Below, in pieces: positions 12,206 through 62,179 of a stretch of 64,000 nucleotides of DNA. Position numbers and translations under genes: made by a program. Origin of the DNA: Heterobilharzia americana (taxonomy: Eukaryota > Platyhelminthes > Trematoda > Strigeidida > Schistosomatidae); NCBI GenBank assembly GCA_944470555.2, contig OX104132.1, forward strand, positions 724,931 to 788,930, given 5' to 3'. The notes beneath the pieces were generated by a model, which was not told the DNA's origin, searched no databases, and saw nothing but the letters and a program-made list of their open reading frames with translations. The stretch's first letter is position 1. The number at the start of each line of letters is the position of its first letter.

Positions 12206-12311
<106 letters not shown>

Positions 12312-17390: not shown

Positions 17391-17609
17391 ATGCACATTT
17401 CAATCTCTCGTTATTTCATACTACTGAGTAGTATTATTTGTTATATGGTCACCAAAAGTTATGCAATCGAATGTTTAAATCATTGGATCTCATCTATCCA
17501 ACCTATTGCCTTCTCCTTGAATCCATGCTTCACATGTAAATATTCTACATTCCAAAGATCTATGCATATTAAATGGGAATGTGAACGTGAATACAACTTG
17601 AAAATCAAT
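17391..17609 (+). CDS. FN3 gene exon 1 (signal peptide)
   Basis: 73 codons from ATG to the donor AAT|gtgagt, phase 0. The N-terminus has a hydrophobic core (FILLSSIICYMV) followed by TKSYA|IE, a plausible signal peptidase site with Ala at -1. The mature part is Cys-rich (PCFTCKY, IKWECERE) and leads into the first module. The ATG has A at -3, and no better upstream in-frame start was seen. Confidence 0.85.
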
Positions 17610-23600: not shown

Positions 23601-23846
23601 GTGAGGAGCAAAAAGATGAGCATATACGACTAGACCGGAGAAAAGATCCTAGAAGATTTCATTGGATTTCGCCAACGATGATAATTTATGTCTAATATCT
23701 AGTGTCGCACAAACTCGAAGATGTACAGGCGAAAACTAACAAGTTGAAAGAAGAGACGAGGTGAGGCGAAGCGAGGCAGCGAAAATGGGACTTCCCTGAG
23801 TGGATGTAGAGAAGACATAGGTGATGAAGATATCCAACCAGCCAAC

Positions 23847-23878
<32 letters not shown>

Positions 23879-29519: not shown

Positions 29520-32500
29520 GGGTCAGGTATACAGGTTATTCCATGCGACTGTTATTCAAAAGGGTTTAGGAGCACTATCCATTGCTGTTACAAAGACGTA
29601 GCCATGAAGTGAGAAGAATTCCTATAACTGAGCACAACGTGAACGTGGATCACCCTATCTCAAGAACCATCTCGTTCAAAATCATTTTATTAAGTGAAAA
29701 TAAATCTTCCATTCGAATTTTTCATCGTAACTATTTGGGTTTATTGAAGGAAAGGAAGCTTTAACATGTCGCTTTACTTCTAGTTAGTGTTTATGAATGT
29801 TTAATCAAGAAGGATACGACATAGTTTCAAATGCCACAAGACCAATTTTAAGAAGCCTAATACTTAAACAAGAATTTAATCAACAGATACATGGATACAT
29901 ATAAAATCTACAATCGACTTAAGTAGAAAATAGTCATCTCTGAAAGAGTTTCAAACTGACTCAACAAATCAATACTGAAACATAGGGTGATATTGCGAAC
30001 AAATAAATAGCCTCAAAGGGATAGAGAAAAGCTGAGCATCAACATAATACAACGTCTGTATTTTATAGTCTTTTCATTGAACTACAGATAATAATCTATA
30101 TCCAAAGTAATAGAGAATATTTGTGGCTCAGATGGATGATCTTGGTTGTATTGTGTTCTCTGAAATGGGTTGACATAACAATCGAAAGAAACAACCAATC
30201 ACAGACCACGTCGCCACTAAATCACTCACGGAGAGATATTTACAGGTCACTTTATAGTGAAGTTAGTGGTGGTGATGTCTCCGTCTAGCAAGACGATGAA
30301 AGCTTCATGATTAAACAACCCAGCACAGAGAACACAATACAACTAAGATTGTATCCAAAGTGTTACATAACCGATAACACTATTTCAATGTCCAATCAAG
30401 CGAATAGTAATTCAAATGAATTAGAATAGTACTTTCATCAGAAAACTGTACCATATAGTTCTGGTAGTTTAAAAATCCTGGTTATGTCATAAGACAAAAG
30501 ACATTTAACGAAGAATCACTCTGTCCAGTCAATATTAATATCTCTATGAGAAGAAGACTTATAAAGACCAAAGTAATCAATATTTAGTTACTAAGTTAAA
30601 TGATACAATAAAGTGACTGGTGAATATAATGAAAAATTAGAATGAAACAAGATGGAAGGATGTAATGTGTCAGAAGATATGATATTTTTTTAGCACAGAT
30701 TTCAAGCTTCATCTCCAAATGAATATCCTGAAGTTCTAATTAGAAACGATGACCTGTGAGGTTAACTATTGGCCGGGGGCGGGGGAGGTAGAGTAGATCC
30801 TAATTGAAGTTCCCGAATGATCATCACTCTGTAGAAGTTGGAAATCTTGAACCATTGCACTGTGACCTAGTGATTGAATAGTTAAGTCATTCACCATGAA
30901 ACCTAAAATTCCTGAGTTCGATCGTTAACTAAGTCATGAGTATTTGCTGCTGACGAGTCCCATCATAGGATGAAACAACTGCTTAGAATTCTCAATTTTT
31001 TAATGCTTCGCCAACGGATATCAGTCCTTCATGAATACTACCTCAGGTGTACACCACTCACTAGGCTTCATGGAACTCTATAAATGATAATTAAGTTGTT
31101 CTTTTTTGGATTTACTGATAGTATACTTATCAATAATGGATGTATATTTGATTTAATTTGTCGAAATTCTATAGTTTACTGTTTTGCATATATCATTCTA
31201 TGATTTTCAAATGAGAGAGTTATAGTTGTTGTTGTTGTTATTGCTTCGACGTTTGAAGTGTTGAATACTTGGTCCAAGTCTATGGGTTACAGATACATCT
31301 AACTGTTGTATCTTGAATAGAACAAAATGTATCTTGTATTCCACTAAATAGACTATAATTATTATTATTATTTTATTATTAGTCCCTTGGGTTCCTAGTG
31401 GAACATAGGGCTTCAGTAGCACGCCTCCAGTGATCTCTGTTCTCTGAGATCTTTTGAACCTGGTCCCACGACAGCCCAGAAGAAATAGACTATAATAGAC
31501 AGTTATAAATTTCAAGTTGCTATTCATCGTAAACTGACATCAGTTCGAGGAACAAAGGAAACCTGAGAGCATTGGACAGCTGTTTTGGTCAGACTAGTAT
31601 GGGACTTCTCAGCAGTGCGCACCCACGAACCCGCCACCTTCAGGTTCCATGCCCAGCGCATTATCGTCGAGTTAGCCACTGTGTCAAAATCCAATGCTCC
31701 ATATTTCCAACTTCTATTACTGTTTACTTGGAAATTCAAAGATTTGCTTATTACTTAATTAATTATTTAAAATTTACTTAGGGTACTGTTGGATCCATTC
31801 CGTTGGAAGAAGTATCGAATATTGAATTGAGAAAATTAGGAAAAAGAGAAAATACTTCTTATTCAAATGCTATTTTATCGGTTGGATATATGACTAGTCA
31901 AGGTTGGACAAGTATACAACTTCAACTTCAATTGATTGCACACCCTCCAGCTGATATTGAAACAAAACCTCATCTTCATTTCCAACCAGTTTTAGATGAC
32001 AATGAAATATCAGTTAACTACTTCCATTTATTTTGGTATTCAGGCAGGCAAACAGAATTCACTATCTTAATTTATAATCTGTAAGTTGAAATGAACACTT
32101 ATGTCGAAAACACACTATGTATTATTTATCATAAACTTATATCATCTGGAAAGACCCTTGAAAACCTGAGAACTCTGGATAGCTGTTTCGTCTTGGCATG
32201 GGGCTCATCAGCAGGACACACCACCTATGATCACACTTTGGATAGGAATTTATTTTGCCAATTTGAGATATAGCGCTTATCCCATGATATATAGTAATTA
32301 TCAGTCGAGGTCTTCAGTTGACATCTCCTTCCCTTCTGGCTGGTTGGCCTCACCGACTATGGTTTCTCTTTAAAACTTCACGATATCCATCTGGAAGCAT
32401 GTTGATAATGAACACAATAAAGTAGTGCATTTTTAGGATGACAGTCACGATATATCGTGAATTGATAGAAGTTGGAAATTGTGAGCAACTGAAAACTGAC

Positions 32501-35500
32501 CCAGTGTCTGAATGGTTAACGCGTTCGCCGTGAAACCTGAAGGTCCTGGGTTAGACCCCTAGCCGGGTCGTTGGTGCGTACTGCTGAAGAGTCCCATACT
32601 AGGACGAAACAGCTGTCCAGTGCTCCCAGATTTTTAGTGGTTCCCCAACTGACTTCAATCCATGATGAATACTACTTCTAAATAAATCATCATCGTTGGC
32701 AAAATTTAAATCTTCTAGGGTCGTTGTCTTTTCATCGATCAAACAGCGTATGCCCATCATCTCACAATTCGTTGCACTATCCAATCCGGTCCAGTCGACC
32801 TCAATCAAGATGATCATTGGTGGTAGTACGCCGCAGCCTTATCTTACTCCTATCTCCACTTCAAGTCCGTGAAGAATTCTACTTCTCAATTTTTTTACCG
32901 AATCCCTTGCAATGATTGCAAGGTCAAACACATAGGTCAAATTAGTCGACTAGGGTCAATTAGAGTAACAGAGCATTAACTAATTGGCTAATTTAACATT
33001 AGTAGATCCTAATGAGATAAGAAATTTAGAGAAAAAGTCGGTTGGCTATAGCTACGCACGCAGTTACACACAATCACACAATGGGGTGGGATAGAGAGAT
33101 AGTTTTGGAAATAACTTAGTTGGGGTGGGTAGAGTTGAGGGAGAGATTAATAAACAAATCTTTGTTTATCGAATCAACATCAAATACATGCAGTCGGAAT
33201 GATTATAAACCTGTTCCAGATATATGACAAATTCTATCGTTCTTGTGACAAAGAAGGATAGAAAATTAGAACTATATAAACTCTGTCTCAAAGTTTTGGA
33301 GTTACCTAATATGAATATGGATAATAAATTATGTTCGAAACTTTGCTATCTAGTAAATGGTACTGTTACACATTGTGTAACATTTTGAATAAACAGACTG
33401 AAGTGAAATTTCAAGTTGGTGCTGAATTCTATCGGTGGCAGGGTGGGGTGGTGTCATGCGTGTGCACCGTGGAGGTATCCTAAACTAAGATGAAATAGAT
33501 AGTCATGCAATGCATTCGGGGTTTCCAATATTCCACCAATTGAAATCAACTCATGATGAATACCGACTTGGAAAATTAAATTCCCTCTAATACCCAAATT
33601 AAAACAAAGCTACAAACTACACGTAAATGTTAGTTGGTTGGAGGCAATCGGCAGGTAGCCGTGGATTTTGGCACTCATCAGCAATGCATATCTGCAATTT
33701 CGGCGTGCCTGATGTCCCACCTGAGACTCGAGCCCGCGTCAACCAGTATCACAGTCACTGACTTTACCACAACTATTCGGGACGCTACCGACATTCTGAA
33801 GGACTGGTTTACATGTATTGTACTAATGTGCACCGCGATGCTTAGGTTCCTAGCCTGGTTGCACATTGCAAATATGATTGATAGGATTCAGTTTGCACTC
33901 AGGACTAGACAACATGAAATTGGTTGCACTCCTGTAACCAGTCAATACAAACTACATGTGTTGATTGGATAAGCAAAACTTTAATTGAGGATGGGAGAAT
34001 ATGTACCTAAATGGCTTCGAAAACAAGTGAAGTGTAAACTAGGAGTAAACCCTGAAAGGAGATGACCCTCTTCATCTATAACAAAACATATCATGGAAAC
34101 ACGTCATAAAGTTATTGTTCAAACAGCCTTTAAAGTTTTATATAGAAGCAATCAGTCAGGTATGTATACTGAGATTTGCAGAAGCCATGGCCATACAGAG
34201 TGAAATCATCTTTATGTGTATGAAAAAACTTGTACTTACACAACACCTACCAATTGGTAAACTTTGTTTTCTTCTTCATCATCATCAATATCAACATAGG
34301 ATTAGGCATCACTACGTAACGGTCCGAGTTACCACAGCTAATATCACCACATCAAGTAAAAAGGTAGTGAGGCACAAGATGAATATAAGAAAATTCAGTC
34401 AAGAGAAACATAGACTACTAGAAGAAAGAAAGGAAGAATGACAAAATGGTGAGATTCGGTAAAGCGTCGTTAACATGAGGATAATGTGTGTGTGTATACA
34501 TCTGCACCACTGACATCGCTTCTCAGCCATATCCCCCAGAGTCTCCAGCCACTGGTTCCTCTTATCCCACCAACCCAAACCACCTAGTATGCATCACCCT
34601 ACATGGCTCAAACAAACAGTCAGAGACTTCATACATCGGCGCCATGTTTCAGTCGTACCTTCGGGGCATAGTGGTCAACACTTTGGCATTTGCAGCGATG
34701 GGTACGAGGTTCGAGTTTCAATGGGAACAATGCCGCACACTGGGGTGCAGGTACACTCAGCTGACGAGTTCAAAATAGGGCGAAATGTGCACCCTGAATT
34801 CCACTGCTAACCACTATCCATAACTGCTTTAATAAAAGATGTTGGATATATGGAAAAGTTAGAAAAATGTTTTGAAATATTGTTAACAAGAGGAAAAAAT
34901 GATTATCTACATCATCCTAGTATTCATCACAGACCGACATCAGCTGAAAAAACATAGAAAATCTGATAGCACAGAACAGGTGTTCCGTCCTATTATGAAG
35001 CTCCTCAATAGTTAGTACACATCTATGACCATACCACGAATCGAACTTAGTACCTTCATATCCCGCCATAAATGCGTTGCCATTGGACCAAGGCGTCGGA
35101 TTCCTCTAGTCTAAAGTTTCCTGTTGATTGCATTCCCAAATGAATACTAACTAGGAATAAAATCACCTTAGACACCAAACTAATTTATTAATTTATAAGT
35201 AAAATTTTATTATTGCATATAACAGTTCACAAACTTATCATTGAAATATATATACTTAACTAGTAATTTGTTTAGGCAAGTTATTTGTGTAATACATAAC
35301 ATTCCACTCACTTCAATCTCTTTTGTAAACAGTTACCATACCGAAGTAAGTAATTTTGAGATGAAAACGCGGGAAAACTTGTTAGAGTTACATGAAACAT
35401 CCTTATTGTAATGGTTGTTAAGTTTGCAATGTAGTCTACGATAAGGTTATATTATTTTTGCAATTGGAAAGAATTCTGTAATTTCATAGGCTTGGAGGTA

Positions 35501-38500
35501 AAACTAGAGTATTGTTGATGCCATCGATGAAGAGTCATCAGTAGAAAAGCATTAATGAATATATTTCATCGTTGGTTCTTTGAAAAGATAAGAAATTATC
35601 ATCGCCATCTTCCTTCGAAGGAAAGCAAATGCAGCCATTATTACCAACAAATGAATATTTACGGCGACAAGTTAGTAGAGAAATACATTCTCCTTGTTAG
35701 TACCGTATATGCTACCGAATCCAATTGCGTCAAGAATATTTGCAATAAATGCAGTCGATCAAAGTGAAGAAAAAGCAAGAAACATTCCAGTTGGTTTTCT
35801 TCAACAATCCTACATGTTGCCTTGCTACATAAAGATTCCGCATGTAATAAAAACTTGGAAAAGTTTCCTGTATTTCGTAAGATTTAATGTAGTAGGATTG
35901 AGTGAGAAAATGGAATGTGAGAATATCATGTACATGAGTTCGTCTTCCAAGCATAGTCATGATATGCTGGAAAATGTGAAATGATGCCTACCTGGAACAG
36001 GAAAGAAACCGCCTCATCCATGAGCTGTTATCGAAAGAGGCATAGGACTGAACTCATGGCTACGTGTTCAAGACTACCTTATAGCCTCACAGTTCACAGA
36101 AACTTGGTTGCATTGTGTTATCTGAGCTGAGTCATCTATCATAAAGAAGAACGGCTACTCACGAAACTGTATCAAAAGATTCCTATACCCTACATCATCA
36201 ACTACAAAGTCATCCATAGAAATCAATAAATGCATCATCCTACCATACATAAAGAACACGTCAGAAATCACGAAAAGATTACTGAAACCCTTGGAATTAG
36301 TGTGGCTCATAAATCAATAAATTCCCTCCAAACACTATTATGCACACCAAAGAACGCAGCAACCAGAGGAAGATAAAGCGAACATCATTCATAAAATCAA
36401 CTTCAATAACTGCAGTCAACACTACATTGGACAAAGTGGCCACCCTCTTCACCTTTGTCTACATAAACACCGATTGGCTATTCGATGTCATATACGACAT
36501 TTCATCACTCATTCTGATACACGTGGATAATAATGTGGACATGAATTCAATTTCGACAGTGTGGAAATGTTGAATGGTGAGAGGAAAGACAGAAAACATT
36601 ACAGAATTCTTAGAAGCTTGGCAATCATATCAGTCAGCAATCTGTCAACCAATGAGGAAAATGATAAACGATAGGAAGGTGAAACAGAACAACAGTGAAC
36701 AAGAAAATCCATGCAATCAATCAATGACGCAACAATCAAAAGAAACAACCAATCATAAACTAATCCCTGACTTCATAGTGAAGTTAGTGCTTTGGAGGAT
36801 GTTGTCCAGCAAGACGATGAAAGTTCCAGGAATAAACAACCCATCTCAGTGAACAGGATACAACAAAGACCATCCACCTGAGCTGCAAATATTCTCCACC
36901 ATTTCAGTTTACAGAAACCCTTACTAAGTAGTTAATAATAATAACAGTAACATACATATCTTACTTGACATTCTCCTCTGTTCGTTAGCTGGCCGTGTTT
37001 TGAACATCAAACCCACAACAAAAGCTTCGCACTTTGAAGTAAAAGAATATCAGCATGTTTTATTTTTCAATAGCCGACTTTATGTTAGTAAGAGCCATAT
37101 GAGCCGTCAAGAAAAACTTCTCTATAAACAAACTTTCATTACTAACAGTGGAAAATCTGCTCGTACGAAGCTCCCATGCCACCGTATATCGCCTACGAGA
37201 TTTTAGCAGCCACTTACATCAATAGCTCAGAAAGGACTTTGAAAATAGAGCGGTGATGAAAATCTTTCCAAAGAATTTTTATGACTCCTTCATTTCATCG
37301 GTTAGTTGGATCAATGAACTTTGCCAAGATACAAGGTGATAATTGACTAAGTGTCAGTTTTTTTCCTCCACTTTTTACAAGTTATAAGGTGAAAAAGTTT
37401 AACAGATAGCGTAATCAACCCATGGATGAATTCATCAAATATGAGTAGGAATTGCTTGAGGTGACTCTGAAGGTCACCCTGACAACTACTGAACTAAGCA
37501 ATTACAGTTCTGTATTTCACGCAAAACATAAGATTCCAACCTTAATACGGGAATCTGATTGGCTATTTCAGTCCTTGCTAAAACTCCCCTTGAAGTCATT
37601 CATTGTATGCTTAGTGAATCAAATAGGAAGTCAGAGTTTTAAGTGAATTAGATAATCATGTGACCACAGCTATATTATTCTAAAGTTGAAATATAGACAG
37701 TATCCTTGTTTTATCATTGAACAAAAGTCAGTCTATCATTCTAGAAAACGAGTCAATATAGGATTGGGCATCACTACGTAACGGTCCGAGTTACCACAGC
37801 TAATATCACCACATCAAGTAAAAAGGTAGTGAGGCACAAGATGAATATAAGAAAATTCAGTCAAGAGAAACATAGACTACTAGAAGAAAGAAAGGAAGAA
37901 TGACAAAATGGTGAGGTTCGGTAAAGCGTCGTTAACATGAGGATAATGTGTGTGTGGATACATCTGCTCCACAAACATTGCTTCTCAGCCATATCCCTCA
38001 GAGTCTCCAGCCACTGGTTCCTCTTATCCTACCAACCCAAACCACCTAGTATGCATCCCCCAACATGGCTCAAACAAACAGTCAGAGACTTCATACATAG
38101 GTGCCATGTTTCAGTCTAGCCACCTCGGGCCTTTCTCCAGCCTACACCTACTTCAGCCAATATTGTGTGATGAGGCAGTTGGTGACTAGGCATACGTAGT
38201 ACGTGTCCCAACCAGCTATCTCAGTCGATCAAGGTTCATAACCTCATCAACTGATTTACCTCTCCTCTCTCCATAAAACTCTACACCTGACTTCTGCATT
38301 ACCCACGTGGTGATACCACGGAATACGGCCTATACTCTGAAGTCAACGGTGGTCAAACACAAGGAGCCAGCCTTCTCATGTCTTCCATCTTTAATGGTCA
38401 TGTTTCATAGCCATACAGTAGAAGAGAGGGGACTGTAGTGCAGAACACGCAACCTTTGATAGACAATCGGATATCATGGCGACGCCATAGGTGGCATAAA

Positions 38501-41500
38501 TTTTTTGTTTTCTTACCAAGATTAGGATCGATTAGATCATTTCTTGTTTGTTCTCATCTTTCTTAATTTTAATCCTCTATTGTATTAGTTGTTGTATTTG
38601 TACTCCTACTTCTCGGTTTATTATATATTGACTTGACAAGTAAATGTATGCTCAAATTTTTCGAAATATATTGAGCAAATACATCACTTTGTTCAGACAA
38701 ACTTCGTTTTCCAGTTATGCTTTTCACTTTATAAATGACTTTAAACGAGCTTTTTGAGATAGGGTGATTGTGTTCATGATGTGCTCAGTTATACTATTGA
38801 TTATCACTTCATGGTTACCTCTTTGTAACCACATGGGATAGTGCTCCGCAACCCCTTACGGGCAACACTTGCATCGAACGATCTATATACCTGGCTCCAC
38901 AACACCAGGTGAATGGATTGATGCACATAGAAGTGGTCAGATGAGAAACTTTCTCCTTTGAGTTGTTAGAAATCATTGGACGACAATGAGGATACTAGTG
39001 TCAACATTCATGCAAAGAATGTTCTCCTTACAGCATTTGATGTCCTCCTTTTTAGTGTGTCAGCAACAGAATCACCTTCGAAGTTGGGATTCATATAGAT
39101 TATCTTTTTTTCGATGGTTGTAAGGTTCTCTTTACGAGGTTTACGTTTGATGTTTTTGTCTATGAAGCGTGTTAGGAATTGGATTTCCTATCAGGATGTT
39201 GTTTAGGAGAGAAATATCTTCTTCTAACACATTGGAACTGCAAATTCATCTGATTTGAGTGTCAAGAGATATGATTAAATTTTGCTTACTACTCATAGAT
39301 ACTCAGCTATTAAAGTTGGTTGGTTGATCATTCTACATTAGTTTTCTGTGAACTGACCTACTTAACGTTCCATCAAATGTTCTTGTCAGCTTTACATCAA
39401 GAAAGTGAATTTTTGATCTCAATCGTGAATCTGATCGCTGACTGGTAGTTACTGAATATTTGTAGAATATGATTCAAATCAGATTGATGGTGACAGATAA
39501 TAAAAGTATCGTTCATGTACCTTTTGTACAGATGAAAACCCTCAATCGTTGATTTCAGGGATCCGTTTTCCAACGTTTCCATAAAGCAGTCTCCTAGTAG
39601 TAGTGGACTCAATGTGGATCCCATGGCGATTCCATCTTTCTGTCTGTAAATCACGTCGTTAAATGTGAACTGAAGGTTGAGTTTCGGTCTAGGTAACGGT
39701 TCCTTAAGGCGGGAGGTTGGTATCCCAACATATAGGTTGTTATCATCTATGTATCTACTATCACAACATTCTCCCTCTCCACCTATGCCAGTTTTTTTCA
39801 AAATTATCATTGTATCACATCTTATTACATGAATGTGTGTGCATATGTGCCTGTGTCTTGCATCGCTATGGCTGACCTCTTTTCTAGATAAGAAATCTAT
39901 CCTAATTGACCCCAATTGGTTATATTTCAAGCTGCTATTCATCGTAGGCTGACATCAGTTGGAGGAACAAAGGAAACCTGAGAGCACTGGACAGATGTTT
40001 CGTCAGACTAGTATGGGACTCCTCAGCAGTGTGCACACACGACCCCACCCTCACTGGATCGAACCCGCCACCTTCAGGTTCCACGGCCAGTGCGTTACCA
40101 TTGAACTAGCCACTGTGTCAGAATCCAGTGCTTCATATTTCTAACATCTGTTAGCTCGCGATATAGTGCAACCGCCAACCGATGTGATCGTTGAGTAACT
40201 GTCCTCATGACCATCAGGCTTTGTCCCCACCGGTCCCGACTTCTCATTGGAACGTTGAGAATACCTCTCGAAGCTGGTCACTAATGAGCACCAGCAGTCC
40301 CATACTAGGACGAAACAGCTGTCCAGTGCTCCCAGGTTTCCTTTTTTCCTCCAGCTGATTTCAGATTACGATGAATAACAACTTGAAATATTTCTGAATG
40401 CCCACAACTCCATCGAAACCCAATTGTTTAGTTTCACCTATGTATTTAACTTCAAAGTTTGATCAATCTGGTGGTTTCTGATATGTCTTCTTTATATTGT
40501 ACAACTATGACAGTTTTAAAATACTTTCCCGTCTCTGTAATCCTATTGTATCGAGTAATTCCCTTTCTCTTACCTTTGTCTTCCTGGATAAACTCGTAGC
40601 AGTAGTTGTTGACTTATCATGTATCATAAGGATATCAGAAAATGAGAACTAGGAGTTCAGTGGAAAAAAAATTCTTTTCAGTGAATCCATTCACTAAACT
40701 GTACACTGGAAATTACACCCAGTTTTCTCTTTAGTAAGAACATATAATTAATTTCATATGTGATATACATAGAAACAAACCAAGTATTATATTTATTTAT
40801 TTGTCCCTTGCTTTCCTAATGGAACACACCGCTTCAGTAGAACGTCTCCATTACACTCTCTTCTTGGCAATCTTTCCAACCTGGTTCCAAGACTGCCCAC
40901 AAGCTCTCATTTCTTCCTCACACAATCTCCTCCATATCACCCTCACCTCAGACGACCAACTCGTCGTTTCCCATGCAGGTTCCACTCGAGTGCCTGGTCT
41001 GACCTGGCGCGTGATGTCCCCAGTCGGTCTTTTCAGTGTATGCCCAATCCACCTCCACTTCCTTCCACTGCATATTCGTTGAGTGATAGGTTCTTGCTTT
41101 GTTGGTTCGTTGCTAGAGTTTCTTGTTGCTTATTCTTTCTGGCCATCTGATCTCATCTTCAGTAACGAGCCAGCGTAGGCAGTCGTTGATGAATGTCTGT
41201 AGTTTGTCGGAAATCCATTTCGTAACGTGCCAAGTCTCCGAGCCGTACAGAGGCAATTATTTGACATTGGTGTTGAAAATCCGGATGTTGTTCACGCTTT
41301 ATGCTGAGTTGAGTGCAGGAGATCTCCGCACCGGTTTCAGGCTAATGCACGAAGGCCTATCTTGCTTTTCCGATGCTGGCTGGATTTGACGTTCTCATCT
41401 CTGCCGTCGCCTGTAGTTGAAACAGTGCTGCCTAGATAGGTGAAAGAGACTACTTCCTTTAAGTTTCTCTCATTGATGGTGATTGGAGATTGTGGTTGTT

Positions 41501-44500
41501 GGTGGTGGCTTTGGCTGGGTAACATCATCACCTCTGTCTTCTCTACATTCACTTGAAGTCCTGTTTTCGCTGCCTTGCCTCTTCCGTCAACTTGTTAGTT
41601 TTCGCCTGTAGATCGTCGAGTTTGTGTGACATTCGACATAAATCATGATGGGCGAAATCCAAATCTTGTACGATCTTCTCCCCGGTCCAGCGTATCCCCT
41701 TCTTCTCGCTCTTCACTGTTTTTTGCATGATCCAGTCCACCACAATCCGGAATATCATGGGTGATAGTAGACAGCCTTGTCTTACCCCTGTCTTCACTTC
41801 GAAAGCATCACTGAGCTTCTCATTGTGAGTTACTTAGCATGTGGTGTATTCATATAGTTATTGAATCAGATTGATAAAGGTTTGTGGCATTCCATAGTGT
41901 TGAAGCAGTTGCCAGATTTTTTCTCGGTCGACGCTGTCAAAGGCCTATTCAAAGTCGATGAAGTTGAGATAGAGGGTTGACTGACATTCTATGATCTGTT
42001 CTATGATGATGCACCATTCATTTTCTTATGGAAATATTCAAAATGTTTATGAATAATTGAAAGTAATCAAGAGATATGTTAACAGAGCGTTAAAAGAGAG
42101 TACTGCAAAGCTAATTCGTTGTATGATTGGACTTCATATCAATACACATCCAAGAGTTGAATCGATTTATTCAACTCTGCCGCAGCTGATTAACAAACAT
42201 ACACACATGAACATGGCTAGATATGAGATTTTATCTTTTAGGTTGTTCTAAAGAACACCGGCCTACAGAACAATACTTTAATACATCCTGTAAAGAACTC
42301 TATAATTTTCAGTTGGTTGAAATCATTTTCTTTAAAGTACTAACAACTGGGACACATTTAAAGTCAAGATTCATATGTACGATATATTCTGATATACAAA
42401 TTTAGTCAGATCATGAGGCTTTCGGTTCGGTTTACTTCCCTATGAACTGTGTTGGATATGTATTTCTGATCGGAATTTCTCGCCTATGATTCCATATTAT
42501 ATTATCGTTTTGATATGACCAGCACATGGTCATGTCGTATTGTTTTTGCTGGATGACATTTTGAGCAGAACACATTGCTCATATTCATATCTCAGTAATC
42601 ATACAACTTTCCTGTATATAGTTCAACAGTTCTTCATTTGTTGATTTTAATGGTAGTAAAATTTTCCAGGTACCTGAAATATGTATAGTGTCATTTCTAT
42701 GATATGAACGAAGAGTCTGTGATCAATATCTCCCTCTAATAAGCTGTATTGGATTTTAGAACCGTCAACCTATCCCACCCATCCTATTGTATGTGATTAT
42801 GAAGCAATGCATGCAGGGTGACAGTCGAGAATTCTTCTAAGTTATTTATCTTAGTAGAGTTTATAATTGTATGTTTCACTAATATTTTGTGTTGTGGTAT
42901 TCTGACTGACTCAAATCAGCTGCCTTCATCTATATACTTAAACTAATTGGTTCTACTGAATCTTTTAGCCTACAAAGTGGAATAGTAATGTTAGGGATGA
43001 TTGTAACATGCTAAAGAGAGTATTCAAATCCTCTGAGTCAGTGAGAATAGCATAATACAAGTTGTTGGCGAAACATACAATGATAGACCTTACTGACATA
43101 AGTAACTTGGAAAAATCTTGACTGTTGCCCTGCATGCATTAATCCCTGATCACACACAATAGGGTGAGCGGGATAGGGTATTATTATTTGTTCCTTAGGT
43201 TCCCAGTGGAACATACGGATTCAGTAGCACATTGCCACTTCACTCTTCTCTCCAGTCTTGTTTTTTAACCTGGCTCCATCAACTTTCATCCCCTCCTCAC
43301 TCTCGCAAGCTCAACTCTTCCTTTGACTTTCACTCGAGGCCTTGACATGGTGTTTGGTGTCCCCAAACCGTCGTATCAGTGTACGCCAAATCCAATCCCA
43401 TCCAATCCATCTCCATTTTCTTCTCTATATTTGTTGGACGATAGGTTGTTGATTGGTTGGTTCGTTGCCAGAGTGAGTTCCTTGTTGCTTATTCTCACTA
43501 TTCTGGCCATCTGATCTGATCTTCAGTATGTAGTGAGCGTAGGCGGAAGCTGTTCATGTATATCTGTAGTTTGTTGGGAATCCTTTTTGTAACATGCCAA
43601 GTCTCTGAACCATCACATCGAAGGAAGAACTGACTTGATTGACTTAGTATTGAAAATCCGGATGTTATTCTTGAGGCTGATTGCAGTGCAGTGCAGCGAA
43701 ATGCAGTAGGTATCCACACTGATTTCAGATTATTACAGGAAAGCCTATCTTGCTGTATTTCTTATCCTGACTGGCTGGCTGGCTGACTCTGACATCCTCA
43801 TGTGTGACTATGTCACCACCTGTAGTTGAAACCATGCTGTCTTGCCTATGTTGGTAGGTAGGTGAAATAGACTACTTCCTTTACATTTCTCCCATTCACG
43901 ATGATTAGTGCTTGTTGTTGTTGTTGTTGTTGTTGATGATGATGATGATGATGGTTGGTTGGATATCTTCATCACCTATGTCTTCTCTACATCCACTCAA
44001 TGAAAGTTCCGTTTTCGCTGCCTGGCCTCACCTCGCCGCACCTCGTCTCTTCTTCCAACTTGTTATTTTTCGCCTGTACATCTTCGAGTTTGTGCGACAT
44101 TAGATATTAGACATAAATTATCATCGTTGGCGAAATCCAATGAAATCTTCTAGGATCTTTTCTCCGGTCTAGTCGTATATGCTCATCTTTTTGCTCCTCA
44201 CAGTTTGTTGTATGATCCAGTCGACCATAGTCAGGAGGATAATCGGTGATAGTAGGCAGCTGCTTTGTCTTACTACTTCCTGTCTTCATTTCAAAGGCGT
44301 CACTGGGCTTTCCATTGTCAATCACTTGTCATGCAGCGTCGTCAGATACCTGTTGAATCAGGTTGATAAGGGTTTCTTGCACTGAAACCGTAGTGTATAA
44401 TCAGCTGTCAAATTACTTCTTGGTTGACACTGTCGAATTCCTTTTCAAAGTCGATGAAGTTGAGGTGAAGAGTTGACTGCAATTCTATACTCTGTTCTAT

Positions 44501-47500
44501 GATGATGTGTAGTGTATCGTTGAACTTTGATTGGTACATGATTTGTTCTTCGTGAGGCTGGCCAGTCAGCCTGTTCTGGTTGAAATTTTGAATCCAGAGC
44601 ATCGTTTAGTCTCTGTAGGATGATGTGGCTCAATGTTTTGCTTGGAGTGGACAAGGATGGAGCATGATTCTGCTCCACTTCTTGTTTTTGTAAAGACTTA
44701 GGTCTCCCTTGTTTTGGAGTTTGATAAGTTGGCCGTTTTTCCAATCAATCGGCACCTAGCTTTCCTTCCTTCCTTCTAAGCCTTCTGTAGTAGTGGTGTG
44801 AGCATGTCCGCTGATGTCTGTGTGTCTGTTTTCATTGCTTCTGGATGAATTCCATATTGTCCTGCTTATTTCCCAGGTTTCAATATCCTTATGGCGTTCG
44901 GGATTTCTGGTTTTGTCAGTGGGTTTGTAGTCACTGACTGTTCTGTGCATAGGCTGCTGGTGGTATTTCTGGACGAGTTGCAGTTGGCGGTCGATTCGGG
45001 AGTTTTGAGTGGGATAGGGTGAAAGTACTAAAATCCAATACAGCTTGTTAGAGGGAGATATTGGTCAGAGAATCTTCATTCATACCATAGAAATGATACA
45101 TCACATGTTGGAGATATCTGGGAAATTTATGATTATTAAGAGTAATGAATAAAGAAACCGATCAGTTAGGTCCGCTCAACGATGGGCAAATACAAGCAAC
45201 AACATTAAATCTATACTCGTCACACAAGAAGTGACTATCGTGGCTCGGTGGCTTGGTGGATGACGTTCTGACGTTTGAAGAGATCGGTCCTGAAGTTCAG
45301 TCTTAGCAGGAACAACATTGCTCACTGAAGGGTAGCTACATCCATCTGATGGGTTTGGAGTAGGATGAAATAGGTGTCAAGCTGGATTCCACCGTTAGCC
45401 ATTATCCATCATTAATACATGAATTAAGAACTTTTGAACTATGTAAACGAAGCTTGCGGTACATAAACTTGCTTTGATATAAATATGGGCAATGAATTCT
45501 GTTCAGAATATCATCCAGTAATTTTTACACTTTGACCGATTCATGAGGTGATAAAAATCCCTTCCGCAGCTTACTAGGGTACAACATCAGAGGTCAATAA
45601 AAACACTATCTAAATATTTGGATCTTATTCAGATCCAGTAACATTTTAAAATTGAAAGTCATGTTTTTATTCAATGCTGTGAACACTTTGTTGCATAATT
45701 TTGATTTGAAATCCAAGATACCATTGAACAGGCTCTCTACTTCTGGCTGTATAGCTGTGTTGGGTGTTCAAACGTAATTATTAGCTTGACTTTGCCCTGA
45801 TTGGTCGATGAGTATGAGTATAGACATGTGGTGAACCTGATTGGTTGACATTTAGCCTTTGATTTTCCAAGTCGGATGCGTAGGTGTTTTACTCCTTTTA
45901 TTTCTTTACAGTATACTGATTTAGGACGCCCGTTTGATCCCATTTGAGGCTTGTCAGATGGATGTATCTACCTCTTAGTGTTGTACTTCGGAGTGAAACT
46001 TAAACCCAGTATTCATCGTTCAAACGTCGGAGAGATATTCACTAGGCTAGTGGATAACGACAGCAGCTCTATGTTCCATAGAGATTCTCGTTGTTCATTG
46101 GTCTAGACCGAAGTGATCGTTTAATCAAATTCATGGACATTCCACTGATCTGATTGGTTAACATTTTGATTTCACTTAAGTGCTCAAGATTGGTTTATTA
46201 TGATTGGTTGACTCTTCTGCACTGGAAATAGGATGCTATGTGCTGATTGGTTGATGTACTTTAGCTAATTCTACTTGGTTGATACATAGACAAATCATCT
46301 TTTGAACTTCTCGTTTACGCAGAATGACGAGTAGTAGTAATAAAGTTTTATACTGATGTTTATGTTTTCATTAACAACTGTGTTTATTATTTATGATTGA
46401 TACCTGTTACTTCTTTTATAGTACTCATATAATTCAGCATCAAACCCATAGTACATCTATCTGTTTAAAAGATCTAACTGAAGGAACAAAATATAAATTC
46501 TGCATTATAGAAGCATCTTATGCATGCAGAAGTTCATCTTGGAATTGTATAATTAAAACAATCCCTATACTTAGAAAGCATTTCTCTATTTCATCATTCT
46601 CATTGTTGGCTAAAAATTCATCTGAATCACAGTCTATATCAATGAGAAGTAGAAATCTTCGTATCAATAGTTGGGGTAGTGATTGGATACAAATTTCATG
46701 GTCACCATTATCGCATATATCATTTTGGAGAGTAAATGATCTACCTTTGGCTTATTTAATTACTGCTGTTTCAAAGTCAAGAAGTACTAACTGTTATGAT
46801 CGAATCTACAGTATTCAAGCACCGTGGGTAAGTTACCTGTTCAGTTATACAATGATACAAAATGAAGTGATTCTGATCATTTCGACGTTATTTGGTTGGT
46901 GTTGGCTAGCAGGAAAATCTATGACAAGCGTTTCATCCCATGTGAAACTCATCAGCTGAATGTCTCTCCTTTCCAACAGGGTCCGAGCCCAGACGCTAGA
47001 ATATCATCTTCCCAGCTTCCTAGCCATGAAAACTATCCATCATGTAAAGGGTACCGTTTGTGATTGATTAATACTTTTAATTTCTGGTTCATTATAACAG
47101 TCTATTGAATCGACTTATCTCTGCTGGCATATGACCTCGTTGAATACAAGCTTCAGTATTGCCTGAAGTTTCGTTTTATTGGTAATTTTTTGTTTGTGAC
47201 TATCACTGGACAAGTATCAATGAATACTCTTGATAAAGATTACATCATCGTGAAAGGTATCAAAGATAAAAGCATGAACTAAAAGTCATTATCATTAAGA
47301 GGCTTTCAACTGATGGTCTAAAGGTTGTCCACCAGGCGTCCTGTGACCTAAAACACTCAACTATCAACCGAATGTTAACATAAGTCATCGACGGTTTTAG
47401 CCAACTACCATGTGAATTCCAGACACGTCATTGTTGGTAAATTGTAATGACATTAGCCTCTGAAACTGATAGATACGAGAATGGTATTTAATTTTGGGGT

Positions 47501-50500
47501 TTGCAGAGATTTAGAAATTTTTCAAGTTGGAGAAACATTGGAAACCTGGGAGCACTGGACAGCCGTTGCGTCCCGGTGTGGGACTCCTCAGCAGCGGGAA
47601 ACGGTGACCCCACTCCACCACTGATCGAATACAACACATTCAGGTTTCGTGGCCATTACTTTACCATTGAGCTATCCAGTAGGTCGGGATCCGATGGTCC
47701 ATATTTCCAAATTCTGTCAGTTCACCACATATCGTGACCATGACCCAATGTCATCGTTGAGTATTTGTCCTTAGGGTCACCAGATTTGCTCCAACGGTCA
47801 CGCGTCATGAGTGCGCATTGTTGAGGAGTCCCATACTATGACGAAGCACCTGTCCAGTGTTCCAGCCTTTCCAGTCTTCCTCCAATTGATATCAATCCAT
47901 GGTGAACATCAACTTGAAAAACCACTAAATCCGCACAAATCCCCAAATTAAACTAATGTGATGCTCGTAGGTGACTACCTTCGAGAGGTGATTCCTGAAG
48001 TTCCAATTAGAACTCGTGACCGATGGTGACCGTGAGGACAAATACTCAACGATGATATTGAGTGGTGGTTGCACCATGTCTTAAACTGACAAAAATTGGA
48101 AATATGGACCATCGGATCCCAACCCTGTGGCTTAGTCGTAACGTGGTGGCCACAAAAACTGGAGGTCCCGGGTCCGATCCCTGGCAGCACGAGGTTATAC
48201 GTGCTCACTGCTGAGGAGTCCCATACTAGGATGAAACAGATAGTTGTCCAATACTCTCAGGCTTCCAATGTTCCTCTAACTGTTGTCAGTCCATTATGAA
48301 TATCAACTTGGAGATGACACTGTTAAACAGATTGACAATTATCAAAGATTTACAGTAACATTTCTTGAATGTTGATCATTTTTGTTTAAATTGTTCAAAT
48401 TTTCTAACTCACTTTTAGGCGCATGATTTCAATTCAAATTTAGCTTCTTCTGTGAATGAAATACATCATGATATTGCTTCACAGTGTTCACTCAATGAAA
48501 TATATAAAAAAATAAATATTTTAGGAAATATTTGGCCAGAATGGAATACTTTTATAAATTATCAAAATGGTATTGATGAATTAGGTTCAGTAATGAATGA
48601 ATTTATCGTCAATTTGGAACATCTTACACCTCATGAAGAGTATACAATAAAACTGCAACCGATTTTTGAAAAGTATAATGGTGTTATTGAAACTGTTGTG
48701 GCTGAAAAATGTAAGTTTTTATGCAAAACTACTTCTCACATCAGTTTATCTTCTCATGTCTATAAAACAGTATCATAAGAGGTAAGCATTACCTGGGAAT
48801 TAGGATCAGCCCTGATAGCTCAGAGTCCGATGAAATCTCTGCACGAATACAAAAGGCTCTGCTGGCTTTCGGCAATTTATGCCACCCATGGTGCCGCCAT
48901 GATATCCGATTGTCTATCAAAGGTTGCGTGTACTGCACTACAGTCCCCTCTCTTCTACTGTATGGCTATGAAACATGACCATTAAAGATGGAAGACATGA
49001 GAAGGCTGGCTCCTTGTGTTTGACCACCGTTGACTTCAGAGTATAGGCCGTATTCCGTGGTATCACCACGTGGGTAATGCAGAAGTCAGGTGTAGAGTTT
49101 TATGGAGAGAGGAGAGGTAAATCAGTTGATGAGGTTATGAACCTTGATCGACTGAGATAGCTGGTTGGGACACGTACTACGTATGTCTAGTCACCAACTG
49201 CCTCATCACATAATGTTGGCTGAAGTAGGTGTAGGCTGGAGAAAGGCCCGAGGTGGCTAGACTGAAACATGGCACCGATGTATGAAGTCTCTGACTGTTT
49301 GTTTGAGCCATGTGGGGTGATGCATACTAGGTGGTTTGGGTTGGTAGGACAAGAGGAACCAGTGGCTGGAGACTCTGAGGGATATGGCTGAGAAGCAATG
49401 TTTGTGGAGCAGATGTATCCACACACACATTATCCTCATGTTAACGACGCTATACCGAACCTCACCATTTTGTCATTCTTCCTTTCTTTCTTCTAGTAGT
49501 CTATGTTTCTCTTGACTGAATTTTCTTATATTCATCTTGTGCCTCACTACCTTTTTACTTGATGTGGTGATATTAGCTGTGGTAACTTGGACCGTTACGT
49601 AGTGATGCCTAGTCCTATGTTGATATTGATAATGATGAAGCATTGACGCCTTTTCTAGAATGATAGACTGACTTTTGTTCAATGATAAAACAAGGATACT
49701 GTCTATATTTCAACTTTAGAATAATATAGCTGTGGTCACATGATTATCTAATTCACTTAAAACTCTGACTTCCTATTTGATTCACTAAGCATACAATGAA
49801 TGACTTCAAGGGGAGTTTTAGCAAGGACTGAAATAGCCAATCAGATTCCCGTATTAAGGTTGGAATCTTATGTTTTGCGTGAAATACAGAACTGTAATTG
49901 CTTAGTTCAGTAGTTGTCAGGGTGACCTTCAGAGTCACCTCAAGCAATTCCTACTCATATTTGATGAATTCATCCATGGGTTGATTACGCTATCTGTTAA
50001 ACTTTTTCACCTTATAACTTGTAAAAAGTGGAGGAAAAAAACTGACACTTAGTCAATTATCACCTTGTATCTTGGCAAAGTTCATTGATCCAACTAACCG
50101 ATGAAATGAAGGAGTCATAAAAATTCTTTGGAAAGATTTTCATCACCGCTCTATTTTCAAAGTCCTTTCTGAGCTATTGATGTAAGTGGCTGCTAAAATC
50201 TCGTAGGCGATATACGGTGGCATGGGAGCTTCGTACGAGCAGATTTTCCACTGTTAGTAATGAAAGTTTGTTTATAGAGAAGTTTTTCTTGACGGCTCAT
50301 ATGGCTCTTACTAACATAAAGTCGGCTATTGAAAAATAAAACATGCTGATATTCTTTTACTTCAAAGTGCGAAGCTTTTGTTGTGGGTTTGATGTTCAAA
50401 ACACGGCCAGCTAACGAACAGAGGAGAATGTCAAGTAAGATATGTATGTTACTGTTATTATTATTAACTACTTAGTAAGGGTTTCTGTAAACTGAAATGG

Positions 50501-52163
50501 TGGAGAATATTTGCAGCTCAGGTGGATGGTCTTTGTTGTATCCTGTTCACTGAGATGGGTTGTTTATTCCTGGAACTTTCATCGTCTTGCTGGACAACAT
50601 CCTCCAAAGCACTAACTTCACTATGAAGTCAGGGATTAGTTTATGATTGGTTGTTTCTTTTGATTGTTGCGTCATTGATTGATTGCATGGATTTTCTTGT
50701 TCACTGTTGTTCTGTTTCACCTTCCTATCGTTTATCATTTTCCTCATTGGTTGACAGATTGCTGACTGATATGATTGCCAAGCTTCTAAGAATTCTGTAA
50801 TGTTTTCTGTCTTTCCTCTCACCATTCAACATTTCCACACTGTCGAAATTGAATTCATGTCCACATTATTATCCACGTGTATCAGAATGAGTGATGAAAT
50901 GTCGTATATGACATCGAATAGCCAATCGGTGTTTATGTAGACAAAGGTGAAGAGGGTGGCCACTTTGTCCAATGTAGTGTTGACTGCAGTTATTGAAGTT
51001 GATTTTATGAATGATGTTCGCTTTATCTTCCTCTGGTTGCTGCGTTCTTTGGTGTGCATAATAGTGTTTGGAGGGAATTTATTGATTTATGAGCCACACT
51101 AATTCCAAGGGTTTCAGTAATCTTTTCGTGATTTCTGACGTGTTCTTTATGTATGGTAGGATGATGCATTTATTGATTTCTATGGATGACTTTGTAGTTG
51201 ATGATGTAGGGTATAGGAATCTTTTGATACAGTTTCGTGAGTAGCCGTTCTTCTTTATGATAGATGACTCAGCTCAGATAACACAATGCAACCAAGTTTC
51301 TGTGAACTGTGAGGCTATAAGGTAGTCTTGAACACGTAGCCATGAGTTCAGTCCTATGCCTCTTTCGATAACAGCTCATGGATGAGGCGGTTTCTTTCCT
51401 GTTCCAGGTAGGCATCATTTCACATTTTCCAGCATATCATGACTATGCTTGGAAGACGAACTCATGTACATGATATTCTCACATTCCATTTTCTCACTCA
51501 ATCCTACTACATTAAATCTTACGAAATACAGGAAACTTTTCCAAGTTTTTATTACATGCGGAATCTTTATGTAGCAAGGCAACATGTAGGATTGTTGAAG
51601 AAAACCAACTGGAATGCTTCTTCCTTTTTCTTCACTTTGATCGACTGCATTTATTGCAAATATTCTTGACGCAATTGGATTCGGTAGCATATACGGTACT
51701 AACAAGGAGAATGTATTTCTCTACTAACTTGTCGCCGTAAATATTCATTTGTTGGTAATAATGGCTGCATTTGCTTTCCTTCGAAGGAAGATGACGATGA
51801 TAATTTCCTTATCTTTTCAAAGAACCAAGGATGAAATATATTCATTAATGCTTTTCTACTGATGACTCTTCATCAATGGCATCAACAATACTCTAGTTTT
51901 ACCTCCAAGCCTATGAAATTACAGAATTCTTTCCAATTGCAAAAATAATATAACCTTATCGTAGACTACATTGCAAACTTAACAACCATTACAATAAGGA
52001 GAAAACGTCTTCCACTGATGTTTCATGTAACCGTAACAAGTTTTCCCGCGTTTTCATCTCAAAATTATTTACTTCTCTATGGTAACTGTTTACAAAAGCG
52101 ATTGAAGTGAGTGGAATGTTATGTATTACACAAATAACTTGCCTAAACAAATTACTAGTTAAG

Positions 52164-52213
<50 letters not shown>

Positions 52214-55200
52214 ATGATAAATTTGTGAACTGTTATATGCAATAATAAAATCTTACTTATCAATTAATAGATTAGTTTAGTGTCTAAGGTGATTTTATTG
52301 CTAGTTAGTATTCATCTGGGAATGAAATCAACAGGAAACTTTAGACTAGAGGAATCCGACGTCTTGGTCCAATGGCAACGCATTTATGGCGAGATATGGA
52401 GGTACTAAGTTCGATTCGTGGTATGGTCATAGATGTGTACTAACTATTGAGGAGCTTCATAATAGGACGGAACACCTGTTCTGTGCTATCAGATTTTCTA
52501 TGTTTTTTCAGCTGATGTCGGTCTGTGATGAATACTAGGATGATGTAGATAATCATTTTTCCTCTTGTTAACAATATTTCAAAACATTTTTCTAACTTTT
52601 CCATATATCCAACATCTTTTATTAAAGCAATTATGGATAGTGGTTAGCAGTGGAATTCAGGGTGCACATTTCGCCCTATTTTGAACTCGTCAGCTGAGTG
52701 TACCTGCACCCCAGTGCGCGGCATTGTTCCCACTGAAACTCGAACCTCGTACCCATCGCTGCAAATGCCGAAGTGTTGACCACTATGCCCCGAAGGTACG
52801 ATAGCTACTTCTTGAGCGATAGGTATAGTTTTTAGTATTCATGTTTCTATACTATACCCGTTACACTAGGAGTGTCTGTCTTGGCTCGGTGGTGTAGTGG
52901 ATAACGCCCTGCTATTTGAAGCGGTCGCTCCGGAGTTCGAATTCCAGCGGGAACAACACCACCCACTGGGAGTCTGGTACATCTGGTTGATGAGTCCAAA
53001 GTATGACGAAATTCGCATTCTGGATTCCACTACTAACCACTATCCATCATTAATATAATTAATACACAGGTAATATCGAGACATCCGTACAGGAGCCCAT
53101 ATTACAACAGAGACCTATCAATGACGGTATAATACAAACGTTGTATTAATTTTCCATTTTCTGGTTTCCCTTGTTAAAGCACATAATCATGGTGAAGGTG
53201 TAACCGTATTACGAAAGTAATAGTAAGACCATTGATCAAGTTTTCTACGAAACGAAAAGCGGTACCAAAACATAAATACGCAACGTAGCCCCAGTTTCCT
53301 TTAACTACTTCGATGAAGTGGATATATAGTTGATTGGCTTACGAAGCTGATTATCAAATATTAAGTGGCGATTTCAAATACCGCCTTACGATTGTGTAGA
53401 AGGTTGGTGAGTAGACTTCAATTTTCAACCCTTGACAGATAAACAGGCAGCTTATTTCTAATGTCAGCTTATTATTTGCCTATAGAGTGTTGAAGAACGA
53501 TTTTTCTACATCTTATAGACTTCACTGTCTTTGCCACTTAAACACAATCAATACTGACTGGACATTAAAAACACTTAAATCAGCTAATTACTAAGTTCTT
53601 TGGAAACAAACCAGCCAAGAACCTATCACCTAAAAAATATGCAGGAGAAAGTGGGGATGGATTGAGCATATATTGAGAAGGCCAACTGGGGACATCACAA
53701 GTCAGGCCCTCTAGCGGAACCCAAAAGGGAAATGACGAGTTGGGCGTCTCAGTTGCGGGTGACAAGAGGAGATCGTGTGAAGAAGAAATAAAATGTTGTG
53801 GGCACTCGTGGCGCCAGGTTAAACGAGAAGACTGAAGAGAACAGAGTACAATGGAGGCGTGCTACCGAAGCCCTATGTTACACTAGGAAACCAAGGGGAA
53901 AACAACCGTAACAATAATTACTGAATCATTATAGTTTATGCAGGAAATGATTGAACATAGTCATGCTTACGCTTCATTCGCTTTTTGGATGACGCTGTAA
54001 TGTCTGAAGAGAAGGGGATTGGGTTTAAGCCTCGATAAGAATAACATCACTCATGAAGTTGCAGGTACATCCAGCTGGGGAGTCCCGCATAAGACAGAAC
54101 GCGTATTCCGGATTCCTCTGCTAGTCATCAAGATTATAGTAACTTTGATTCCACTTTATGTGAAAAGATTCGATTATTAGATGTTCCTTATAAGTTCTAA
54201 AGACTTTTTGAATAATTTCCATATTTTCACAATCGACTTTATGATCTGAAATTATAACTTGTAGACTAGCTACGGCTGAATTTCTTCCTATCTATACACA
54301 ACTAGATTGTGAATTCAAAAGGATCTTATCCTTCAAGTGGACTATGGTGTTCTGTAATGTGTTTGCTTTTCTGTAGAACACTCCTAACACAACTCAGAGT
54401 ATCTTATTCCATTTGAATAATGAGATCCCTCTGGATTCACAATCTAATTGTGTTTATAAGATAAACTACTCAGACTGTAATACAGCATACATACGACAGA
54501 TTTCCTGTGAAATAAAATTTAGAGGGAATGAATACTACAGACTAACTTTAACTAATTGAACTTGATACACAGACTTTTATTCTTCATTTTATAGTGAATC
54601 CATTGTCAGACTGTAAATTAAGTCTTGATGAAACAAATCAAAATGAAATCACTATTCATTGGATCCTACCATCTTTGCTGAAAACAAAGTTGTCAGATAA
54701 CAATAATCCTCTAGTGTACATAATTCAAATTTCTCATATTGGTAGACCAGAAAAGAAACTGGAAGAGACATGCTTCATGCCTGGTTGCCAAGACGTAAGT
54801 TGACAAACTGTCTAAATGATGATTGATATGCCCTGTAATATGGTGTATAATAGAGATAAATTCCTTAAATTCAGCGTGCTTTGTTTTTTATATTTCATAT
54901 CGGTTTGATAAGCAGATTTTATCTACTATTATTATTGTTTGTCCCTTGAGTTCCTAGTAGAATATAGGGCTTCACTAACACACAGCCATTCCACTGTCTT
55001 CTCTGTAGTCTCTTCAACCTCGCTCCACCACTGCCCACAAGCCTCCATTTCTTCCTCACACCATCTCCTCCATCTCCATCTCACCTTCAAACACCAAACT
55101 GGTCGCTTCCCATGACGGTTCCATTCAAGAACCCGGCCTGGTGTTTGGTATCGCCAAACCATCTTTTCAGTCTATCTCCAGTCTAATCCAATCCATCTCC

Positions 55201-61375: not shown

Positions 61376-62179
61376 CAAGTCTGATGATAACTGTATAGTG
61401 TTCGACAAAGACATGTCATTATTAGTGTGTGAACTGCATATATTTAATAATTACTTCTGTGACAAAGCTATGAAAGATTTTGAGAGATTCAAATCTTAAT
61501 CATGAGATTCGGATACCTATGGCTGTAGATGTTAGACAGTTTTAGGGCTACAGCTTAGAATATCCCTCTTGGATTTCAACATCGCTTGACATCAAGAGGA
61601 AGTATCAATTACACTGAGTTCACTCTGCTGTGTACTCAACATATGTTTTCATCAGCCTTCATAGTTGTTTGTCATTATCTCTTCAAATCATTCTACATGT
61701 ATTGACACTTAGAAGTTCTTGTTCTCTTCCTCTTTTTCTTATTCCATGGGTGGGTAGCCATTAGATGAGTGTATTCCTTTTTATGGATAGTTAAAAAAAT
61801 AACATTCCTTCAGTGTCTTACTGGTTTTCGATTGGTTTAACGACACGTGAAACCGAACTCGACAATAGTTCAGTAATTAGATTCATCATTATCGATAAGT
61901 TATTAGTGTACCGTTCATTCATATCATTATACTTGATACAGTAAACTTTCTAGTGTAAACATTGATTGACTTCATTATCAAAACGTTTATCATTTGAACT
62001 TTGACTAGGTTTTCATTACATTTCATGCATAAATTAGGATTGAATTGGCATGTTGAAAATTTGATCAGTTTACTAATTTTTACAAGTGATTTCTACCAAC
62101 ATAAGATTAAAGAAAGGCCACTACTTGCAGACTTTCTTCTGCTAATTTCCATGAAAATTTGAAGTTCAGTTCCACTCTT
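61376..62179. other. No gene recognised
   Basis: No repeat or coding match seen. Confidence 0.4.

Follow-up and report, generated by a model that had tools for sequence, protein, structure and literature searches.

In Heterobilharzia americana, two near-identical arms of about 3.9 kb lie in inverted orientation around exons 3 and 4 of a receptor-type tyrosine phosphatase gene. The gene lies in a 64,000-nucleotide stretch of contig OX104132.1 (C6 in the numbering used here, C6:724931-788930; hereafter the window), and the analysis is based on a single assembly of 664.9 Mb in 337 contigs. The inverted repeat seems to be an intragenic copy: a segment of intron 4 would have been copied in inverted orientation into intron 2 with the assistance of a long interspersed nuclear element (LINE), and the two arms would later have been partly homogenised by gene conversion. 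A probability of roughly 0.55 is assigned to this reading. The origin of the repeat is better supported than any function of it.

The inverted repeat and its host gene

The two arms occupy the following positions.
34653..38502, + strand: left arm, in intron 2; seemingly copied from the right arm in inverted orientation
48874..52801, - strand: right arm, in intron 4; apparent original

BLAST and repeat finding gave 34653-38502 as the reverse complement of 52801-48874, with two main pieces that are 97.2% and 97.9% identical. The BLAST E-values were 0, which rules out chance for this match. The spacer between the arms is 10,371 bp. In the global alignment of arm against arm, 44 substitutions over 3,850 left-arm positions and 5 indels were observed; the indels include a (TA)n run and, after 37757, a gap of 23 bp. 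The alignment is ungapped from 35592 to 37757. A preliminary description of this DNA had reported a near-identical inverted repeat of about 3.9 kb with its left arm in intron 2 and its right arm in intron 4, 10.4 kb apart. This placement holds, and the repeat itself was recovered by BLAST, repeat finding and global alignment. The 1.95-kb core without indels that was described at 35694-37646 falls inside the ungapped run. Four features are added here: an extra LINE 3' end (P', 34274-34654), an 11-bp flanking repeat, the polarity of the arms and a tract of zero difference between them.

The exons were placed by tblastn of three Schistosoma proteins on the window and by inspection of splice sites.
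~17391-17606: exon 1, borders approximate (tblastn)
31782..32080, + strand: exon 2 of the receptor-type tyrosine phosphatase gene (tblastn, splice sites)
46422..46827, + strand: exon 3, bracketed by the arms, 406 nt
48419..48710, + strand: exon 4, bracketed by the arms, 292 nt, with its donor site 163 bp upstream of the right arm
54595..54794, + strand: exon 5 (tblastn, splice sites)
~59401-59622: exon 6 (tblastn)

Intron 2 (32081-46421) holds the left arm, which ends 7.9 kb from exon 3, and intron 4 (48711-54594) holds the right arm. Exons 2 to 5 can be read through in an open frame when joined at GT-AG borders. The sum of exons 3 and 4 is 698 nt, which is 2 modulo 3; when exon 2 is joined to exon 5, the frame is shifted and a stop follows after 6 new codons. 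A search with the exon 3 region, in which stops were written as X, yielded from 38 candidates three matching proteins with identities of 49-51%. The S. japonicum protein is named receptor-type tyrosine-protein phosphatase eta isoform 4, the S. haematobium protein bears names that disagree between sources (GIPC PDZ protein versus protein-tyrosine phosphatase), and the S. spindalis protein is without a name. PF00102, which we take to be the Pfam phosphatase domain, is listed for all three matching Schistosoma proteins. Judged by these similarities, the host gene is a schistosome receptor-type tyrosine phosphatase gene. The statements of the preliminary description on the gene, its exon numbering and the 698-nt sum agree with tblastn and the splice sites. 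A search of the PDB with exon 4 gave no match up to E = 5.

Probable direction of copying and marks of insertion

Features within the arms and at their edges are listed below.
37753..38502, - strand: 3' part of the LINE within the left arm; other copies are homologous up to 38502 and no further
48789..49640, + strand: LINE 3' part in intron 4; homology extends 85 bp beyond the arm edge 48874
52629..52858, - strand: repeat resembling a short interspersed nuclear element (SINE-like), with a type I hammerhead motif; homology crosses 52801 on the right and ends at 34653 on the left
36142..36906, + strand: repeat fragment within both arms, without a Pfam match; presumably Penelope-like, by motif
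34274..34654, - strand: P', a further LINE 3' end, adjoining the left arm on its outer side; begins at the LINE tail
34263..34273, + strand: left copy of the 11-bp direct repeat, TTTGTTTTCTT, candidate target-site duplication
38504..38514, + strand: right copy of the 11-bp direct repeat, TTTGTTTTCTT
35783..37748, + strand: zero-difference tract of 1,966 bp, partner 49651-51616; putative gene conversion

Two internal stretches of the arm were searched alone in the assembly as a test of low copy number; the remaining arm was searched solely within the whole-arm query. The piece 35260-36130 (871 bp) was found at 2 places, both of its 2 candidates being scored. The piece 36915-37745 (831 bp) was found at full length at 2 places, both at 100% identity, among the best 40 of 82 candidates; the other 38 of these 40 scored matches are fragments, 54-143 bp long. 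As a query, the whole left arm gave 47 matches in the best 40 of 19,873 candidates: the two arms, one 92% partial copy at C6:797917-798546, 37 LINE-end copies at 82-84%, P' at 96%, and six short matches. In the genome search, repeat counts are minimum values; words that are very common are passed over, and a missing match is not proof of rarity.

The repeats at the arm edges indicate the polarity. At the inner edge on the right, LINE copies from five of five loci extend beyond 48874 to 48789-48865, and seven of nine further LINE loci extend to 48789; on the left, the alignment of LINE copies ends at 38502 in five of five loci. At the outer edge, the best 38 other places of the SINE-like repeat all begin beyond 52801. 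Eight of these copies (L027-L034) were re-aligned; all eight extend to 52833-52858 on the right, and their best alignments with the left arm begin at 34653-34658. Since the repeats run on beyond the right arm's edges but end abruptly at those of the left arm, the arm in intron 2 looks like the copy of a segment native to intron 4. Deletions on the left could also have removed the ends of the repeats, although both edges would then have to have lost them. A transcript initiated at the SINE-like repeat with its 5' end at the arm edge was also considered and ruled out, since other copies extend 32-57 bp beyond this edge on the right.

The left arm does not stand alone in intron 2. P' (381 bp) is joined to it with a 2-bp overlap, belongs to the same LINE in the same orientation as the LINE end of the arm, and begins at a (CAT)n tail. 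P' and the arm together form a left unit of 4.2 kb (34274-38503), which has a LINE 3' end with a tail, common to other copies, at one edge and is bounded by the 11-bp direct repeat. A match as good as this repeat occurred in 1 of 20,000 random window pairs, a test that skipped pairs less than 50 bp apart, and in 7 of 5,000 pairs with wider windows. If P' is left out of the unit, the flanking match falls to 5 bp. From its sequence organisation, the left unit looks like one insertion.

In LINE sense, the unit is ordered as the arm (LINE fragment, then intron DNA) followed by P' and the tail. Together, the features of the unit are the marks of a template-changing LINE insertion, and a candidate target-site duplication around the whole unit, as used to recognise LINE chimeras, is present in the form of the 11-bp repeat. 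Template switching during LINE-1 insertion yields chimeras in mammals (PMC13174262). SR3, an RTE-clade LINE of S. mansoni, has target-site duplications of 10-12 bp in two copies and AT-rich targets (PMC1291365). A related LINE copy elsewhere in the assembly (L005), approximately 84% like the local copies, has an open frame of 602 residues with an RVT_1 match at 7.2e-34; the LINE 3' part inside the window gave no Pfam match. The unit would work like a LINE-mediated chimeric insertion, without being a proven member of that class.

The following course of events is proposed. The LINE machinery would nick intron 2, and reverse transcription would start on the LINE 3' end, of which 381 nt would be copied. 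A template jump at the 2-bp overlap would then lead onto RNA of the intron 4 segment, and about 3.9 kb would be copied before joining. The copied RNA would be in gene sense and the LINE inserted on the minus strand, so that an inverted repeat would result. Copying of gene-sense RNA onto the strand of a minus-oriented LINE would place an intron-flanking inverted repeat in the gene in one step. Later gene conversion between the arms might have produced the identical tract.

The last step is suggested by the distribution of the substitutions, which is uneven along the left arm: 27 fall in 34684-35782, none in 35783-37748, and 17 from 37749 onward. When 44 substitutions were placed at random, a gap of at least 1,966 bp was obtained in 0 of 200,000 trials, the maximum being 1,236. 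Outside the zero-difference tract, the divergence of the arms is 2.3%. The tract of identity is longer than expected by chance and lies between diverged flanks, which is the pattern looked for in gene conversion. Gene conversion acts between the arms of inverted repeats, as in Y-chromosome palindromes. The sequence of the tract points to such an exchange between the arms after insertion.

Several observations weigh against the LINE-assisted copy. At the inner edge on the right, two of the nine further LINE loci end before 48874. The right LINE has a candidate duplication of its own, AAGCATT, but a weak one, since random pairs did as well in 314 of 5,000 cases, and in 5 other LINE copies the best flanking match is 4-7 bp, with uncertain 5' ends. 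The local LINE is presumed by resemblance to belong to the RTE clade. P' is 96% identical to the arms, and the other 37 of the 40 scored copies (best 40 of 6,240 candidates) are at 85-87%; this list is incomplete in that it misses a shorter match to L003 (91% over 251 bp). From these values, P' seems closest to a local defective LINE lineage. The template of P' was probably a local LINE copy, which demands that RNA of a defective copy was mobilised.

The derived sites bear on the same point. They were counted with L004-L008 (of the 37 copies) as outgroups, in columns with letters in the left arm (L), the right arm (R) and P' and with at least four outgroups agreeing. Pairwise, the shared derived sites number 5 for L with R, 3 for L with P' and 0 for R with P'. 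Nineteen derived sites are common to all four local copies, including L003; 4 are common to L, R and P', with 16 more where L003 is gapped. Private changes number 1 in P', 2 in L and 0 in R. The 5 sites that L and R share without P' also count against the proposed order of events: the split of P' would precede that of L and R, unless conversion explains them. If L, R and P' had started out identical, L would have had to exchange sequence with both R and P'; otherwise P' split earlier.

L003 (C6:797917-798546) lies approximately 9 kb beyond the window and is 92% like the LINE end, against 82-84% in the 37 other listed copies. Two further readings of P' were tried. A fresh insertion from an active LINE subfamily is possible but unsupported, the listed copies other than the arms being at 85-87%. 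A tandem P'-arm-P of a long-terminal-repeat-like or Penelope type is ruled out, since P and P' are LINE ends at many loci.

The main rival is a templated insertion at the DNA level, a possible but less probable origin. Replication might have switched template, or a staggered break in intron 2 might have been repaired from intron 4, with P' as a second templated filler and the 11-bp repeat as filled-in ends. Such copying accounts for an inverted local copy from the same gene, for the 2-bp overlap between P' and the arm, and for arm breakpoints that lie inside repeats and not at their ends. It also handles the local origin of P', which is nearest to a local LINE copy, more easily than the LINE route does. 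However, under this model chance would have set the start of P' at the LINE 3' tail and the length of the direct repeat within the 10-12 bp range of two SR3 copies.

Possible RNA consequences and the remaining alternatives

The preliminary description had also proposed that the pre-mRNA forms a long duplex favouring an exon 3-4 circular RNA, exon skipping or processing of double-stranded RNA. Complementary stretches in both flanking introns, as looked for around circular RNAs, are present. By sequence, a long duplex of the pre-mRNA around exons 3-4 is possible, as is back-splicing or skipping of these exons; this part of the proposal stands. The proposal as a whole is qualified by the frame shift that skipping would cause and by rival pairings. 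Complementary sequences in the introns on either side of exons favour back-splicing as well as skipping in C. elegans (PMC8330042), and by analogy with this precedent the splicing idea is reasonable in kind. In mammals, circular RNAs accompany young transposons (PMC8516420).

The rival pairings were counted in the window. BLAST gave 41 inverted pairs of at least 200 nt, which are pieces and not independent repeats. As many as 33 of them bracket at least one of the six placed exons, so that other pairings would compete with the duplex of the arms. Four bracket exactly exons 3 and 4, and three of these are pieces of the arm repeat or P'. Among the other pairs, 22927-24362 and 43449-44875 form a long one (1,458 bp at 90%) that brackets exon 2, and 17899-18300 and 19409-19810 form one of 402 bp at 95%, 1.1 kb apart, within intron 1.

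Retention of the repeat for the sake of an RNA duplex that brings about an exon 3-4 circular RNA, skipping or small RNAs is improbable. The arms are the best-scoring inverted pair in the window and contribute to the small set (4 of 41) placed exactly around exons 3 and 4, the right arm comes within 163 bp of the exon 4 donor, and C. elegans (PMC8330042) offers a precedent. Conversion, however, accounts for the identical tract with no need of selection, the reading frame is lost on skipping, exon 3 is 7.9 kb from the left arm, and bracketing of exons is common among the inverted pairs of the window. An effect on splicing is plausible; an evolved function is unsupported. Among the matches listed in searches of the schistosome literature on circular RNA and inverted repeats, back-splicing, and gene conversion, none concerned this locus by its title or the opening of its abstract.

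More speculatively, a LINE entering the transcribed gene might have jumped onto the gene's own nascent pre-mRNA and returned an intron to the DNA within an intron farther upstream, conversion might keep the arms alike, and the duplex might alter splicing of exons 3 and 4. This combined reading is doubtful.

An assembly artefact is very unlikely, whether as a spurious inverted duplication or as a core made identical in error. Wrong polishing of the consensus could give the run of 1,966 bp without differences, and a consensus error could in this way be an alternative source of the identity of the tract. But the 44 substitutions and 5 indels outside the core, the sharp breakpoints and the 11-bp repeat are unexpected for duplicated contigs. 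It can be dismissed that one dispersed transposon inserted twice, independently and in opposite orientations: the arms hold pieces of dispersed families (the LINE, the SINE-like repeat and another repeat), but several families follow in the same order in both arms, the edges cut through repeats, and the 871- and 831-bp stretches, expected at full length at other loci if they belonged to such a transposon, were found at full length solely at the arms.

Hammerhead motifs accompany the SINE-like repeat. A hammerhead-bearing SINE-like family exists in schistosomes (PMC8490949). The motifs in the arms (34755-34799, + strand, and 52655-52699, - strand) score 44.9 bits, and the pair at the base of their stem III is a non-standard A-C. 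Because of this pair, and because the predicted minimum-energy fold is not a hammerhead, they are probably inactive; both points weigh down a self-cleaving ribozyme in the arms that would act on the pre-mRNA. Another type I motif, in intron 2 in gene sense (32578-32623, + strand), matches Rfam at 46.4 bits and keeps every consensus pair. In its predicted minimum-energy fold, stems I and II are present and part of the core is paired; if active, this motif could cut the pre-mRNA.

Two reverse transcriptase fragments have RVT_1 matches under the Pfam cut-off. One is at 39397-39954 (- strand, E 0.0002), which we take to be Penelope-like by resemblance, and the other is at 62156-63001 (+ strand, E 0.00013, stops as X). 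No useful match came from Pfam searches on frames of the spacer, of the LINE end of the arms or of the Penelope-like piece. A (TA)n stretch of 104 bp is found at 12206-12309.

Comparison with known systems

The customary explanation for intron-flanking inverted repeats is a pair of related transposons. In the present gene, the repeat seems to be a self-copy of mostly low-copy intron DNA, which bears LINE-like insertion marks and was then apparently homogenised; its arms are much longer and more alike than the usual transposon pairs. If the LINE route is true, such structures would arise in one event with a predictable orientation, and could be counted across genomes. If the copied template was nascent pre-mRNA, LINEs would have a general route for making exon-bracketing inverted repeats from unique DNA.

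The left unit resembles the LINE-1 chimeras (PMC13174262) in the LINE 3' end at its edge, in the other RNA joined 5' in LINE sense and in the candidate target-site duplication. It differs in that approximately 3.9 kb of an intron of the same gene, including a LINE copy, was joined, and in that P' is nearest to a local defective copy. With SR2 and SR3, LINEs of the RTE clade (PMC1291365 and PMC8293314), it has in common a non-long-terminal-repeat type of reverse transcriptase, 5'-truncated intronic copies and duplications of 10-12 bp (two SR3 copies); the present insertion, in contrast, bears approximately 3.1 kb of non-LINE DNA, and the clade of its LINE is presumed from resemblance.

In having complementarity in both introns around a set of exons, the arms are like the intron-flanking complementary repeats of PMC8330042 and the transposon pairs of mammals (PMC8516420). 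They differ in consisting mostly of low-copy intron sequence. Finally, the arms share with Y-chromosome palindromes an identical tract between more diverged flanks, whereas here the palindrome-like structure lies within the introns of one gene and its 10.4-kb spacer bears exons.

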